From Erysipelotrichaceae bacterium (GTDB lineage: Bacteria > Bacillota_I > Bacilli_A > Erysipelotrichales > Erysipelotrichaceae), in assembly GCA_017454765.1 (NCBI GenBank), contig JAFTCJ010000020.1, forward strand, positions 1 through 64,000: a stretch of DNA of 64,000 bases, read 5' to 3'. The position numbers were made by a program, and so were the translations under genes. The stretch's first letter is position 1. Every line of letters begins with the position of its first letter. The notes beneath the pieces are model-generated. The model was not told the origin of the DNA and searched no databases. It saw only the letters and a program-made list of their open reading frames with translations. This document shows positions 32,507 through 38,978 of the stretch, one piece after another.

Positions 32507-34111
32507 ATGAAACAGATCGATCTTGCGCAATATGGCATTACAGATGTAAAGGAAATCATCTATAATCCGTCTTATGAATTCCTCTTTGAAGAAGAGATGA
32601 AACCCGGTCTTGAGGGCTATGAAAAGGGTCAGCTGACTGAACTTGATGCGGTGAATGTCATGACCGGTATTTATACCGGACGTTCGCCCAAGGATAAATA
32701 TATCGTCATGGATGAGAAGTCGAAGGATACCGTCTGGTGGACAAAAGAGTCTTATCCCAATGACAATCACCCGATGTCGGAAGAAGTCTGGGAAAAAGTC
32801 AGGGATCTTGCCAGAAAACAGCTGAGCGGCAAGAGACTGTTTGTCGTGGATGCGTATTGCGGTGCCAACAAAGATACGAGGATGGCTGTGCGTTTCATCA
32901 TGGAAGTCGCATGGCAGGCTCACTTTGTCCGCAACATGTTCATCAAGCCGGGTGAAGAGGAACTGGAAGGATTCAAGCCCGATTTCATCGTATACTGCGC
33001 ATCCAAGGCGGAGGTCGAAGACTACAAGGACTTAGGTCTTAATTCCAGCACCTGTGTAGCTTTCAATATTACATCCAGGGAACAGGTGATCCTGAATACC
33101 TGGTACGGCGGCGAGATGAAGAAAGGCATGTTCTCAATGATGAACTACTACCTGCCTTTAAAAGGTATTGCATCGATGCATTGTTCCGCCAATACAGACA
33201 TGAACGGCGAGAATACGGCGATCTTCTTCGGACTTTCCGGTACAGGAAAAACGACCCTTTCTACCGATCCGAAGAGACTGCTGATTGGCGATGATGAGCA
33301 CGGCTGGGATGACAACGGCGTCTTTAACCTGGAAGGGGGATGCTATGCCAAGGTCATCAATCTTGATAAGGAATCTGAGCCGGATATCTACAACGCGATC
33401 AGAAGAGACGCATTATTGGAAAATGTAACGGTCGATGAAAACGGAATGATCGATTTTGCGGATAAATCAGTGACTGAGAACACGAGAGTTTCCTATCCGA
33501 TCGATCATATCGAAAAGATCGTGAGACCGGTATCGAGTGCTCCGGCTGCAGACAATGTCATCTTCTTATCGGCAGATGCTTTCGGCGTGCTTCCTCCTGT
33601 TTCGATCCTGACGCCTGAACAGACCCAGTATTATTTCCTGTCGGGCTTCACTGCCAAACTGGCGGGTACGGAAAGAGGCATCACCGAACCTACACCGACT
33701 TTCTCTGCCTGTTTCGGTCAGGCTTTCCTGGAGCTCCCTCCGGTCAAGTACGCTGAAGAACTGGTCAAGAGGATGAAGGCTTCCGGTGCCAGGGCATATC
33801 TGGTGAATACCGGCTGGAACGGCACAGGAAAGAGAATATCGATCAAAGACACCAGAGGCATCATCGATGCGATCCTGGGCGGTGCCATCAGCAGGTCTGA
33901 AACGAAAAAGATCCCGTATTTCGATTTTGAAGTACCGGTAGAGCTGGAAGGCGTCGATACGGGCATCCTGGATCCCAGAGATACCTATGAAAACAAAGGG
34001 GAATGGGACGAAAAGGCGAAGGATCTCGCTTCCCGTTTCATTCAGAATTTCCATAAATATGAAGACAACGAGGCAGGAAAGGCTCTGGTAAATGCCGGAC
34101 CGAAACTGTGA
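32507..34111 (+). CDS. pckA: Phosphoenolpyruvate carboxykinase (ATP)
   Basis: Enzyme of 534 residues interconverting PEP + CO2 + ADP and oxaloacetate + ATP. In fermenters it usually runs toward oxaloacetate, making ATP. The ATP-type P-loop is '[12 protein letters not shown]' (about 241-252), with metal site '[24 protein letters not shown]' and 'TGRSPKDKY' near 57-65. The frame opens at 32411, but AAAGAAAGGAGATCTT precedes the ATG at 32507, where the family sequence begins. The carboxyltransferase that removes CO2 from oxaloacetate starts 21 bases downstream, so product is handed directly to the Na+ pump. Confidence 0.95.
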
Positions 34112-34132: not shown

Positions 34133-35506
34133 ATGGTAAGGATTGTTGAGACCTCGGTGCGTGACGGACATCAGTCACTGCTGGCGACGAGAATGACGAC
34201 GGAAGAAGTCGTACGTCTGTGCAGCATTTTTGATGATGTCGGCTATCACGCGATCGAGATGTGGGGCGGTGCGACTTTCGATGCCGCCATGCGTTTTCTG
34301 AACGAAGACCCCTGGGACAGACTCAGGGAGGTCAAGAAGGTCTGCCGCAAGACAAAACTGCAGATGCTGTTCAGGGGACAGAATATTCTTGGTTACAGGC
34401 ATTATTCCGATGATGTCGTGGACATGTTCTGCAAGAAGTCGATCGAAAACGGCATCGACATCATCCGTGTTTTTGATGCTTTAAACGATATCAGGAATCT
34501 GAAACAGGCCGTGGAGTCGACCAAGAAGTACGGCGGAGAGTGTCAGATCGCTCTTTCCTATACGACTTCGCCCGTGCATACGATCGAGTATTTTGTCAAT
34601 CTGGCAAAGGATATCGAAAAGCTCGGTGCCGATTCTTTGTGCATCAAGGACATGGCCGGCATCCTGCTTCCGGAAGATGCGACGGAACTGGTCAGTGTCC
34701 TGAAAAGGGAGATCTCGATCCCTCTGGAGCTGCATTCCCACGCAACGGCCGGTGTTTCTGAGATGACTTATCTGGCTGCCATCAGAGCAGGCGTAGATAT
34801 CGTCGATACTTCGCTGTCGCCTTTGTCCGGCGGTACGGCCCAGCCTTCGACACAGGCTCTGGCTGCCGGGCTGAAGGGAACCAAATACGACCCGAAACTT
34901 GATTTCGATGTCCTGCATGAGGCAGAACCGGAGATGACGAAGATCGTAGACAAATACATCAGAAACGGTCTGCTCATCCCCAAATCAATGGAAGTCAATC
35001 CCAATATCCTGACTTATCAGGTACCGGGCGGCATGCTTTCAAACATGATCCGTCAGCTTTCCGATCAGGGAGCCATGGACCGCTACGACGAAGTCCTCAA
35101 TGAGATCCCGCGGGTCAGAAAGGATCTGGGTTATCCGCCGCTGGTCACACCGATGTCGCAGATGGTGGGCACGCAGGCAGTGCTCAATGTCCTCAACGGC
35201 GAGCGTTACAAGATGTGCACCAGAGAGGTCAGGGATTATCTGCACGGAAAATACGGCAAGCCTGCTGCTCCGGTCAACAAGGTGGTGAGGAAAAAGATCA
35301 TCGGTTTCGATGATGTCATCACCTGCCGTCCGGCCGATCTGCTGGAACCGGAATTCGAAAAACTGAAGAAGCGCTATGCCGATATCGCCAAGAGCGATGA
35401 GGACGTGCTGTCACTGGCGCTGTTTGAGAACGTTGCCTCTGATTTTCTCAAGAGAAAGTACGGAAAGCAAGACAACGAATATGACGAATTTGAGATGTAT
35501 ATCTAG
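34133..35506 (+). CDS. oadA: Oxaloacetate decarboxylase alpha chain (carboxyltransferase, no biotin domain)
   Basis: Cytosolic carboxyltransferase of 457 residues that moves the carboxyl group of oxaloacetate to biotin, releasing pyruvate. The TIM-barrel metal site is 'ETSVRDGHQSLLATRM' at about 5-20, with the carboxylated lysine in 'SLCIKDMAGIL' and His residues in 'LELHSHATAG'. 'DTSLSPLSGGTAQPSTQ' is typical of OadA/5S subunits. A post-barrel helical domain follows, but the biotin domain usually fused to OadA is missing and encoded separately at 35770. A GAGGGGATGAT site precedes the ATG. Confidence 0.93.
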   Translation: MVRIVETSVRDGHQSLLATRMTTEEVVRLCSIFDDVGYHAIEMWGGATFDAAMRFLNEDPWDRLREVKKVCRKTKLQMLFRGQNILGYRHYSDDVVDMFCKKSIENGIDIIRVFDALNDIRNLKQAVESTKKYGGECQIALSYTTSPVHTIEYFVNLAKDIEKLGADSLCIKDMAGILLPEDATELVSVLKREISIPLELHSHATAGVSEMTYLAAIRAGVDIVDTSLSPLSGGTAQPSTQALAAGLKGTKYDPKLDFDVLHEAEPEMTKIVDKYIRNGLLIPKSMEVNPNILTYQVPGGMLSNMIRQLSDQGAMDRYDEVLNEIPRVRKDLGYPPLVTPMSQMVGTQAVLNVLNGERYKMCTREVRDYLHGKYGKPAAPVNKVVRKKIIGFDDVITCRPADLLEPEFEKLKKRYADIAKSDEDVLSLALFENVASDFLKRKYGKQDNEYDEFEMYI

Positions 35507-35515
35507 GAGGATGAT

Positions 35516-35770
35516 ATGGAACTGATCAGCAGATATTCCGGTATTATCGCCATCATCGTTTATTCGCTCATACTGGCGCTGATACTGAAGTTTTCCGGAA
35601 AGAAGGAAAAGAAGAAAGACATCAAAGAAACATTGATCAGAAAGAAGAATGATACACCGTTGGATCCTGATGACGAGGATGCGACGATCGCCTGCCTGGT
35701 GGCAGCGATCGAATGCCGCAATGAAACAAAGAAGAATGTCAGGATCGTCAGTGTAAGGGAGGTCAGATAA
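35516..35770 (+). CDS. oadG: OadG-like small membrane subunit
   Basis: Protein of 84 residues with one N-terminal membrane helix ('SGIIAIIVYSLILALILKF', about 7-25) followed by a lysine-rich cytosolic segment and an acidic tail. Position and shape fit the gamma/delta chain that fixes the carboxyltransferase and biotin carrier to the membrane pump. TCTAGGAGG precedes the ATG by a few bases. Its stop overlaps the carrier start by one base. The symbol is given by analogy; similarity beyond architecture is low, as is usual for this subunit. Confidence 0.75.
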   Translation: MELISRYSGIIAIIVYSLILALILKFSGKKEKKKDIKETLIRKKNDTPLDPDDEDATIACLVAAIECRNETKKNVRIVSVREVR

Positions 35771-36108
35771 TGAAGATCTATAAAGTCAAGGTCAACGGCA
35801 AGGTCTACGAAGTGGAAGTGGAAGCTGTTGATGAAGTCAAGGGGAGCGTCGAGGCTCCGGTAAAAAAAGAAGTGAAAGAGACTGTATCCGAAGGAAAGAA
35901 GCAGATACAGGCTCCGATCGCCGGCAAGATCCTGGATGTCACTGTGAATGTCGGTGATATGGTCAAGGAAGGACAGACGGTCGCCCGTATCGAGGCCATG
36001 AAACTGGAAAACGAGATCCAGTCGGCCTTTGACGGCAGGGTCGCGCAGATTCTGGTCAAGACCGGAGATGACGTCCGCAACAAGGATGTACTGATCATCC
36101 TGGAGTGA
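35770..36108 (+). CDS. Biotin carboxyl carrier protein of the decarboxylase
   Basis: Protein of 112 residues: an N-terminal OadA-like strand region, an Ala/Pro/Lys/Val linker (about 25-45) and a biotinyl domain (about 46-112) with biotin on Lys78 in 'IEAMKLENEI'. It shuttles CO2 from the carboxyltransferase to the OadB pump, where decarboxylation drives Na+ export. The biotin ligase gene begins at its stop codon (TGATG overlap), so carrier and modifying enzyme are co-translated. Confidence 0.93.
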   Translation: MKIYKVKVNGKVYEVEVEAVDEVKGSVEAPVKKEVKETVSEGKKQIQAPIAGKILDVTVNVGDMVKEGQTVARIEAMKLENEIQSAFDGRVAQILVKTGDDVRNKDVLIILE

Positions 36109-36821
36109 TGAAAGAGCTTTTCTTTGAAACGATCGATTCGACTAACTCTTATCTGAAGGATCATTATCGGGATCTCGATGATATGACCTTCGTGTCTGCG
36201 GATTATCAGTCAGAAGGAAAAGGAAGAGGTTCTAGGAAGTGGCTGTCTGATAAGGGAGCCAATCTCATGTTTTCGTTCCTGGTAAAGGATGAAGAGGTAA
36301 TGAAACGTTACCCTGAACTCTCGCTTCTGTGTGCCTTCAGTGTGCTGGAAGTTTTGAATTCCTTTGGAATCAGCGATCTGATGATCAAGTGGCCCAACGA
36401 CGTCTATGTGAAGGATGCCAAGATCTGCGGGATCCTATTGGAAGGAATATCCCGTGAGAAGCCCGACTGCATCGTCTGCGGCATCGGGATCAATGTGAAT
36501 CAGACGGATTTTGAAGAGGAATTTGCGACAGAAGCGGTCTCCATGAGGATGCTTCTGAAAGAAAACGTTGAGATCGGCGAATTAAGAAAAAAAGTTTATC
36601 GGAAGATAAACGAAAATATTGAACAACTGAAACGCGGATATGATTTTCATAAGCAGATCGATGCTTATGATTATCTGCGGGGAAAGACTGCTTATGCTTT
36701 GATCGGAAATGAAAGAAAGCAGGTCGATATCCTGGGGATCGATCATGACTGTTCCCTGAAGGTCAGGGATGGTGACAGTATCATGAATCTGAATTCCTCG
36801 GAGATCACTTTCCATTTGTAA
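36108..36821 (+). CDS. birA: Biotin-protein ligase (no DNA-binding domain)
   Basis: Class I biotin ligase of 237 residues that activates biotin as biotinyl-AMP and joins it to a lysine. Motifs are 'GKGRGSRKWLS' (about 39-49, binding biotinyl-AMP) and 'KWPNDVYVKDAKICGILLEG' (about 93-112), plus an SH3-like C-terminus. The helix-turn-helix of bifunctional BirA is absent, so it does not repress transcription. GTG 36105 is in frame, but ATG 36108, overlapping the carrier stop, is preferred. Its placement inside the Na+-pump operon implies that it serves this carrier. Confidence 0.92.
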   Translation: MKELFFETIDSTNSYLKDHYRDLDDMTFVSADYQSEGKGRGSRKWLSDKGANLMFSFLVKDEEVMKRYPELSLLCAFSVLEVLNSFGISDLMIKWPNDVYVKDAKICGILLEGISREKPDCIVCGIGINVNQTDFEEEFATEAVSMRMLLKENVEIGELRKKVYRKINENIEQLKRGYDFHKQIDAYDYLRGKTAYALIGNERKQVDILGIDHDCSLKVRDGDSIMNLNSSEITFHL

Positions 36822-36832
36822 GGGGGATATCT

Positions 36833-37951
36833 ATGAGTTTTCTGTATGAGAATCTGCTTGCCCTGACCTGGCAGCAGGTAACGATGTGGGTGATAGGAGG
36901 TGTCCTGATCTATCTGGCGATCGCCAAAGACATGGAACCTTCACTGCTGCTGCCGATCGGTTTCGGAGCGATATTGGTCAATCTGCCTCTGTCGGGAGCT
37001 GTCAATCAGTTTATCAACGGCATTTTTCAGGAAGGTCCGCTGTCATCGCTCTATGATGCGGGTATTGCCAACGAGCTGTTCCCGCTGCTGCTGTTTATCG
37101 GTATCGGTGCGATGTGTGATTTCGGTCCGCTGCTGACAAATCCGGCCCTGATGATGTTTGGAGCGGCAGCACAGTTCGGTATCTTCTTTACCTTCTGTCT
37201 GGCTTCGATGTTTTTCCCGGTCAACGATGCGGCTTCGATCGCAACGATCGGTGCGGCCGACGGTCCCACAGCCATCGTCGTGGCTCAGAAGCTGCATTCC
37301 ACCTATCTGGGTCCGATCATGGTCGCGGCCTATTCCTACATGGCACTGGTCCCGATCATCCAGCCGCCGGTCATCCGTCTGCTGACAAGCAGGAAAGAGC
37401 GCATGATCCGCATGGACTATGAACCCAAGGATGTCTCCAGGACGACCAGGATCCTGTTCCCGATCATCATCACGGTCATTGCCGGCCTGATCTCTCCGGC
37501 ATCGGTATCACTGGTCGGTTTCCTGATGTTCGGCAATCTTTTGAAAGAATGCGGTGTCCTCAACGGACTTTCCGATACGGCACAGGGTGCCATGGCCAAC
37601 ATGATCACCCTGTTACTTGGCATCACGGTCGCATCACAGATGCAGGCGGAGAACTTCCTGCAGGTCGATACGCTGATGATCCTGGGCATGGGTCTGTTCG
37701 CCTTCGTCTTCGATACGGCAGGCGGCGTCATGTTTGCGAAGCTGCTGAATCTGTTCTTAAAGAAAAAGGTCAATCCGATGATCGGCGCTGCCGGTATCTC
37801 GGCCTTCCCGATGTCGGGCAGGATCATCCACAAGATGGGTCTTGAGGAAGACAATCAGAACTTCCTGCTGATGCATTCGATGGGCGTCAATGTTTCCGGA
37901 CAGATCGCTTCGGTCATCGCCGGCGGTCTGATCATGAGTTTCTTCATGTAA
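36833..37951 (+). CDS. oadB: Na+-translocating decarboxylase beta subunit
   Basis: Membrane pump of 372 residues that decarboxylates carboxybiotin and uses the energy to export Na+. Multiple helices and the family core 'PLLLFIGIGAMCDFGPLL', 'AATFG'-like 'AAAQFGIFFTFCLA' and 'IATIGAADGPTAIVVA' (the conserved region near Asp203 of characterised OadB) are present. 'GRIIHKMG' and 'GVNVSGQIASVIAGG' fit the late helices. AAGGGGGATATCT precedes the ATG. A 47-codon gene follows after nine bases. Confidence 0.94.
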   Translation: MSFLYENLLALTWQQVTMWVIGGVLIYLAIAKDMEPSLLLPIGFGAILVNLPLSGAVNQFINGIFQEGPLSSLYDAGIANELFPLLLFIGIGAMCDFGPLLTNPALMMFGAAAQFGIFFTFCLASMFFPVNDAASIATIGAADGPTAIVVAQKLHSTYLGPIMVAAYSYMALVPIIQPPVIRLLTSRKERMIRMDYEPKDVSRTTRILFPIIITVIAGLISPASVSLVGFLMFGNLLKECGVLNGLSDTAQGAMANMITLLLGITVASQMQAENFLQVDTLMILGMGLFAFVFDTAGGVMFAKLLNLFLKKKVNPMIGAAGISAFPMSGRIIHKMGLEEDNQNFLLMHSMGVNVSGQIASVIAGGLIMSFFM

Positions 37952-37960
37952 GGAGGATCT

Positions 37961-38104
37961 ATGAGTTTCACACCGATGAATTTTGTGTACAATCTGGTCT
38001 ATATCTTCAAAGGGGAACTGGGTCTCTTCTTTGCCTTAGGCATCATCGCCTTGTCGACGATTGTGCTCAACAGGATTTTTACGGATCATGATCAAAAGGA
38101 ATGA
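37961..38104 (+). CDS. 47-residue membrane protein ending the pckA-oad operon
   Basis: Small gene easily missed by length cut-offs. A perfect AGGAGG lies four bases before ATG 37961, and the stop codon TGA (38102-38104) sits inside the operon terminator. It reads 'MSFTPMNFVYNLVY' (amphipathic), then one membrane helix 'GLFFALGIIALSTIVL', then a polar 'DHDQKE' tail. It could be a small stabilising subunit of the pump, comparable in size to the epsilon chain of methylmalonyl-CoA decarboxylase, but I cannot show homology. Confidence 0.8.
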   Translation: MSFTPMNFVYNLVYIFKGELGLFFALGIIALSTIVLNRIFTDHDQKE

Positions 38105-38121
38105 GGTTTCATTCCTTTTTT
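38094..38121 (+). terminator. Terminator of the pckA-oad operon
   Basis: Eleven-pair stem AAAAGGAATGA / TCATTCCTTTT (38094-38104 with 38109-38119), loop GGTT, T-tail. The 47-codon gene ends within the left arm. Confidence 0.9.
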
Positions 38122-38138
38122 CATATAATGAAAGCAGT

Positions 38139-38978
38139 ATGAACAAAAAAAAGATCGTTGCCAGCATCATGCTGATCCTGGCTCCGCTGCTGTGGGGCCT
38201 GTCTTATTCATTTCAGTCGATGTCGACCGAATCACTGGGTTCTTTTTCGATCGTGTTTTTCAAGGGCATCGGTTCGATCGTTCTGCTGCCGATCCTGATC
38301 TTTCAGAAAAGGAGATTTAATTTCAGATCTGTCAGAGGGGGCATCCTGATCGGTCTCTTTGTGTTTCTGGGCTGTTTCTTTCAGCAGCTGGGCATCAAGT
38401 ATTCCACGATCTCCAAAGCCAGTTTCATCACGGCGCTTTATATATTGTTTGTGCCTCTGATCCAGATCTTCATGGGGAAAAAGGTGTCTGTGAAGATATG
38501 GATTTCTGTCCTGGTGGCAGCGATCGGTCTTTATTTTCTGTGCATGCATTCCGATACCGGCATCAACAAGGGGGATTTCTTCCTGCTTGCCGGATCGGTC
38601 ATGTTCGCATTGCAGATCATCGCCATCGATTATTATGTGAAGGACTGCGATCCTCTGGTCCTGACTTTTGTCTATGAATTTTCCCTGTCGGTGTTTGCGC
38701 TGATCGCTGTGTTCTTCTTTGAAAAGATCGATCTTTCAGCGGTGAAAGAGGCCCTGCTGCCTTTGCTTTATCTGGTCTTTGTCAGCGGCATTCTGGCGCA
38801 GTATCTGCAGACCCGTTATCAGAAGGATCTGGATCCTTCGCTGGCTTCCTTGCTGATGAGTTTTGAATCGGTCTTCGGTGCGTTTTTCGGCTGGCTGATC
38901 ATGCATCAGACACTGAGTTTCAAGGAGATCTTCGGCTGTATCCTGGTCTTTCTCGCCATTCTGCTGGCGGAATCATAA
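38139..38978 (+). CDS. EamA/DMT family transporter
   Basis: Drug/metabolite-type exporter of 279 residues with ten membrane helices in two EamA repeats. 'PLLWGLSYSFQS' opens helix 1, 'SFITALYILFVPLIQIFMGKK' lies near the end of the first repeat, and 'SLLMSFESVFGAFFGWLIMHQTLS' ends the second. The substrate is unknown; members export amino acids or metabolites. The frame extends back to 38061, but TATAAT (38124-38129) is nine bases before ATG 38139 and there is no Shine-Dalgarno, so the message is probably leaderless. Confidence 0.9.
   Translation: MNKKKIVASIMLILAPLLWGLSYSFQSMSTESLGSFSIVFFKGIGSIVLLPILIFQKRRFNFRSVRGGILIGLFVFLGCFFQQLGIKYSTISKASFITALYILFVPLIQIFMGKKVSVKIWISVLVAAIGLYFLCMHSDTGINKGDFFLLAGSVMFALQIIAIDYYVKDCDPLVLTFVYEFSLSVFALIAVFFFEKIDLSAVKEALLPLLYLVFVSGILAQYLQTRYQKDLDPSLASLLMSFESVFGAFFGWLIMHQTLSFKEIFGCILVFLAILLAES

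Follow-up and report, generated by a model that had tools for sequence, protein, structure and literature searches.

The open reading frame at 37961 to 38104 on the forward strand of the window, by which we mean the whole 64,000-nucleotide stretch of Erysipelotrichaceae DNA analyzed here, is a real gene under purifying selection. Its 47-residue product is, with fair confidence, a minimal subunit of the gamma type in a biotin-dependent decarboxylase Na+ pump, replacing the N-terminal helix of OadG on the beta subunit OadB through a cassette swap that probably split the roles of gamma. Most likely, the small protein does the membrane-anchoring half of OadG's job. We see in it a divergent form of a familiar component (gamma) and not a new kind, from a diverged clade of the named and apparently unstudied family OadG_rel_small. 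New here are its strict tie to one OadB lineage, an operon swap within a genus, and a complementary decay of OadG.

The gene closes a cluster in the order pck-oadA-oadG1-bccp-birA-oadB-small, its neighboring genes being separated by about 20 nucleotides at most. Its conserved position behind oadB bears out the preliminary description, which had made it the last gene of a Na+ pump operon. The features of this region are as follows.

32507 to 34111, forward strand: pck, which we take to encode PEP carboxykinase (ATP); first conserved gene of the cluster, with an inferred start and with synteny in relatives.
34133 to 35506, forward strand: oadA/pycB carboxyltransferase, the alpha subunit without a biotin domain (NF008985, NF006761; PF00682 plus PF02436).
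35516 to 35770, forward strand: OadG1, a degenerate OadG of 84 residues (PF04277 at 19.9 bits, cut-off 27), with the gamma C-terminal tail kept and the conserved helix motif lost.
35770 to 36108, forward strand: bccp, biotin carboxyl carrier protein (PF00364, E 4.2e-18).
36108 to 36821, forward strand: birA, BirA-like biotin protein ligase, between bccp and oadB (PF03099, E 2.5e-21).
36833 to 37951, forward strand: oadB, type B carboxybiotin decarboxylase/Na+ pump beta subunit of 372 residues (PF03977, E 2.4e-149; type assigned by tree), in the same frame as the small gene.
37951 to 37956, forward strand: Shine-Dalgarno sequence AGGAGG, 4 nucleotides ahead of the small-gene ATG and sharing one base with the oadB stop codon.
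37961 to 38104, forward strand: small gene for an OadG-related, 47-residue, single-helix protein, identified by sequence, orthologs, profile and selection; motif G18-x4-F23 (G-x-x-x-[VIL]-F).
38094 to 38119, forward strand: intrinsic terminator hairpin, an 11-bp stem followed by T's (-14.8 kcal/mol, z -3.3).

A structure search with the predicted OadB structure matched 6iww_A (Z 45.6, rmsd 2.6 over 365 residues). The small reading frame has an ATG start, 47 codons, a single hydrophobic stretch and a TGA stop at 38102 to 38104 that forms the end of the 5' arm of the terminator hairpin, and it translates as MSFTPMNFVYNLVYIFKGELGLFFALGIIALSTIVLNRIFTDHDQKE. Sequence inspection and hairpin folding confirmed the AGGAGG, the ATG, the one membrane helix and the stop inside the operon terminator, all of which had been pointed out before. 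A simple consensus terminator scan did not pick up the hairpin at 38094 to 38119. About 20 nucleotides past the terminator begins a gene (38139 to 38978) that we presume to encode an EamA-like transporter; a mechanical list of open reading frames puts its start at a TTG at 38061, within the small gene.

A six-frame search of 61 related genomes recovered close homologs in 16 congeners and the window genome, in open frames of 46 to 68 residues. We also read the DNA 3' of oadB at 80 loci in GTDB genomes. At nearly all of them, a short open reading frame with a ribosome site encodes a related single-helix protein, mostly within 35 nucleotides of the oadB stop, and most of the few loci missed by a simple open reading frame filter carry the same protein when inspected. 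The motif columns are kept at the same spacing, G18 in all 80 family members and F23 in 75 of 80, and the motif persists in relatives of 38 to 106 residues with differing spacers and signal-like extensions. In an alignment of 34 core sequences, pairwise dN/dS has a median of 0.19 where dS is below 2, and of 0.17 in comparisons with the window. Fifteen disjoint pairs contain 224 nonsynonymous and 185 synonymous changes, where neutrality predicts that about three-quarters would be nonsynonymous (binomial p of 1.5e-20). The orthologs in 16 congeners, the occurrence 3' of nearly every close oadB and the purifying selection together argue that the open reading frame is more than a product of chance. 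The earlier judgment of a convincing small gene therefore held up: the frame is conserved in relatives that keep oadB, and the codon substitutions carry the signature of purifying selection. At one locus (L071, 6116 to 6350), oadB extends beyond its usual stop and the small protein follows close behind in another frame, a possible frameshift or overlap.

To relate the small gene to its neighbor, we constructed a phylogeny of 127 distinct OadBs from the genus, a wider sample of the phylum and the 34 genomes behind the clostridial loci. The tree divides at a single branch (support 1.0, length 0.99) into 82 OadBs with the small gene, here called type B, and 45 without it, called type A. The small gene lies directly downstream of oadB in 82 of 82 type B and 0 of 45 type A loci, in a sample whose type B members were collected by similarity to the window OadB and in which small-gene presence was scored with a profile trained on the same family. 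One further OadB, at a locus (L141) truncated on its 3' side by the end of the contig, grouped with the small-gene OadBs in the first tree, was scored as lacking the gene and was excluded from the second tree. On average, two type B OadBs are 76% identical, two type A OadBs 63%, and a pair of one each 49%. The type B lineage occurs in Clostridia, Erysipelotrichia and some Halanaerobiales. In many Clostridia, the type B oadB and the small gene form an isolated pair among unrelated genes, away from other pump genes, which indicates that the small gene is tied to oadB itself and not to the remainder of the pump. Two loci (L102, 4608 to 10253, and L106) hold tandem clusters, in which a type B oadB with its small gene is accompanied by a type A oadB a few kilobases further on.

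Both operon versions occur within the window's genus, in which OadB is present in 23 of 36 genomes. Seventeen have type B, all with the small gene; five have type A, with no small gene and with an OadG above the PF04277 cut-off; and the remaining one (G026) is truncated by a contig end. The small gene was not found in any of the 13 genus genomes without OadB. Type A operons read pck-oadA-oadG-bccp-oadB-birA and type B operons pck-oadA-oadG1-bccp-birA-oadB-small, such that pck-oadA-oadG-bccp is common to both and the difference is limited to oadB and what comes after it. The birA gene lies inside the operon ahead of oadB in the window and after oadB in the same-genus type A operons. Identity to the window oadA is 76 to 78% for type A genomes and similar (from 76%) for some type B genomes, whereas identity to the window oadB is 47 to 49% for type A and 81 to 98% for type B. 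Moreover, the Erysipelotrichia type B OadBs form one clade (0.997) nested within clostridial sequences. We infer that a clostridial-type oadB-small cassette was inserted behind birA and that the old type A oadB was then lost.

Pfam and NCBIfam scans with the window protein alone returned chance matches only, such as the helix of a CPBP protein at E 0.008, and a PDB sequence search with the small protein gave nothing meaningful. The earlier impression of no direct similarity thus stands for single-sequence scans but not for the family profile. With hhalign, the small-protein family aligns to 47 columns of the canonical OadG N-terminal helix (91.8% probability, E 7.5e-7), and the G and F of the motif are in register; this helix-to-helix homology draws on few informative columns. 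Membrane-protein controls, in the form of overlapping 60-residue OadB windows, reach about 10% at most. The OadG-type N-terminal helix motif, G/A-x3-V-F, is likewise found in the small-protein family. As in OadG (PF04277; Salmonella beta3gamma3, 6IWW), a single helix with G-x3-[VI]-F in register is encoded together with OadB and probably runs from an outer N-terminus to an inner C-terminus. In contrast to OadG, the small protein has 47 residues, ends a few residues past the helix and lacks the alpha-binding C-terminal tail; its gene lies 3' of oadB, and a separate, tail-bearing OadG1 is encoded in the same operon.

The family also touches a curated model, NF040909 (OadG_rel_small, "OadG-related small transporter subunit," 37 positions), which shares with it a very short length (about 37 to 50 residues), a single membrane helix and likeness to OadG. 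A protein behind a type B oadB (L096) passes this model with 38.8 bits against a cut-off of 25, and other relatives score 17 to 23 bits. Altogether, 12 of 35 family members matched NF040909, and PF04277 was the commonest weak Pfam match, also in 12 of 35 (best E 0.0037, gathering score 27 bits); in the 35-member alignment behind these counts, one row has one wrong letter (MFKNF, correct MFQNF), and hhalign was run on the exact sequences. The window protein matched neither NF040909 (cut-off 25 bits) nor PF04277 (27 bits), two closely related Erysipelotrichia small proteins gave no match to NF040909, and a scan of 120 genomes of the phylum with NF040909 found none, its controls being equally silent. 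Since a syntenic relative passes the model and the window protein does not, the latter belongs to the same conserved neighborhood family while lying outside the curated NF040909. The suggestion of a new subunit type is not supported, as family members reach this existing model. A literature search found no paper on OadG-related small subunits.

The OadG1 of type B operons is the complement of the small protein. With hhalign, it aligns to canonical OadG with 98.2% probability over tail columns 72 to 112 only, whereas its alignment to the small protein spans 3 columns. The alignments of both proteins place the two halves of gamma in two different proteins. The conserved V-F of the gamma helix is lost from OadG1, and a membrane helix is still present. 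A loose regular expression for the helix motif separated the groups poorly, matching 23 of 23 canonical OadGs and 10 of 30 OadG1s as well as the OadG of one clostridial genome (G370), and aligned columns and hhalign were used instead. A second OadB place exists in 26 of the 34 clostridial genomes (in G364 only as a fragment at a contig end); a PF04277 gene is present in 25 of these 26 and shares a contig with the type A oadB in 23. The single OadB place of the other eight is always type B. No PF04277 match was found in six of these eight, and the remaining two (G354 and G370) have weak matches in which the helix is missing the glycine of the motif. Canonical OadG is a companion of type A OadB. 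In two genomes with type B OadB only (G368, at L226, and G369, at L225), we observed that OadA and BCCP are fused, and we saw no OadG gene adjacent to the fusion.

In the Salmonella structure, gamma residues 2 to 43 form one helix packed on beta T4, T6 and T10, and the cytoplasmic gamma tail binds alpha and is dispensable for beta (PMC7274780). We modeled OadB read through into the in-frame small gene with AlphaFold (oadB TAA read as Q, linker QGGS), the fusion serving as a tether only. The model has a mean pLDDT of 86 and a confident helix at 388 to 420, whose pLDDT is 92 to 94 in the core and drops toward the C-terminal end; it does not count as evidence of docking, and a structure search of the models matched the OadB part only. 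Covariation between OadB and the small protein was weak, in an alignment too shallow to decide (Neff 34), and put 10 of the top 30 pairs on T4, T6 or T10 against 18% expected, with a slight lean to T4 and T10. The small protein probably has its N-terminus outside and its C-terminus inside, as in OadG, an orientation that fits the signal-peptide-like N-termini of some relatives. Three of these (L072, 6090 to 6401; L075, downstream of 6119; and L081) have such an N-terminus followed, ahead of the helix, by a polar segment that is long and rich in Thr, Ala and Glu.

Our proposal of a divided gamma follows from the Salmonella structure and from the small protein having the length and motif of the gamma helix without a tail, and OadG1 having the tail along with a helix that lacks the motif. 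The single helix of the small protein would pack on and stabilize OadB in place of the canonical OadG N-terminal helix. It belongs to type B OadB and would move with it as a two-gene oadB-small cassette, which in the lineage of the window would have taken the place of the earlier type A oadB. The OadG already present would then have lost its beta-binding helix motif while retaining its cytoplasmic tail, the part that recruits the carboxyltransferase. Where present, OadG1 would tether OadA, with the degenerate OadG supplying at most the tail, and the roles of gamma would probably be split over two proteins. The full course of events, in which a mobile cassette of clostridial-type oadB and helix-only gamma displaced the resident oadB, the 47-residue helix binds OadB, and OadG decayed to a tethered, carboxyltransferase-recruiting tail, we put forward tentatively, at slightly less than even chances. 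The solved beta-gamma structure of such pumps is enterobacterial, with one two-part gamma subunit, and a whole OadB lineage is accompanied by a helix-only protein that, in most cases, protein-family models fail to recognize because of its shortness and divergence. If the proposal is true, it reveals which half of gamma OadB really needs and explains orphan oadB genes, and the two operon versions in one genus provide a natural experiment on subunit-interface swapping in a primary Na+ pump.

The small protein could instead be an extra subunit on top of the normal beta-gamma complex, with OadG1 filling the gamma site and the small protein attached to another place, perhaps the trimer interface, or stabilizing OadB insertion. 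Window-type operons do keep an OadG with a membrane helix beside the small gene, and OadG1 could still occupy the gamma site. However, the conserved V-F is missing from OadG1 and G-x3-[VIL]-F is carried by the small protein, it is the small protein and not OadG1 that aligns with the OadG helix, and the clostridial genomes with type B OadB only mostly have no PF04277 match or, in two cases, a weak OadG without the motif glycine. We consider an extra subunit unlikely. Far less probable still is a cotranslated element that is no subunit, for instance a translational coupler or a peptide associated with the terminator. The small-gene stop codon within the terminator hairpin would suit such an element, but it is the amino acid sequence that is under purifying selection, and the motif outlasts changes of length, spacer and N-terminal extension among relatives.

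The preliminary description had called the product a structural subunit, which it almost certainly is, namely one that goes with OadB, and had likened it to the epsilon chain of methylmalonyl-CoA decarboxylase (MmdE). MmdE has about 55 residues and is similar to the delta chain in its C-terminal part. Like the small protein, it is a short accessory subunit in a Na+ pump of the decarboxylase type, the resemblance being one of size; the small protein, in contrast, aligns with the OadG N-terminal helix, and the partner carboxyltransferase here is OadA-type, not MmdA-type. We rejected the epsilon idea, to which we assign a very low probability, with nothing beyond size in its support; a literature search found no paper on mmdD/mmdE. 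The membrane oxaloacetate decarboxylase of Enterococcus faecalis has a non-canonical subunit, OadH, proposed as a functional homolog of OadG (PMC6193673). Likened here to the small protein by description only, OadH is described with the cytoplasmic OadAHD complex and is perhaps nearer to the tail half of gamma.
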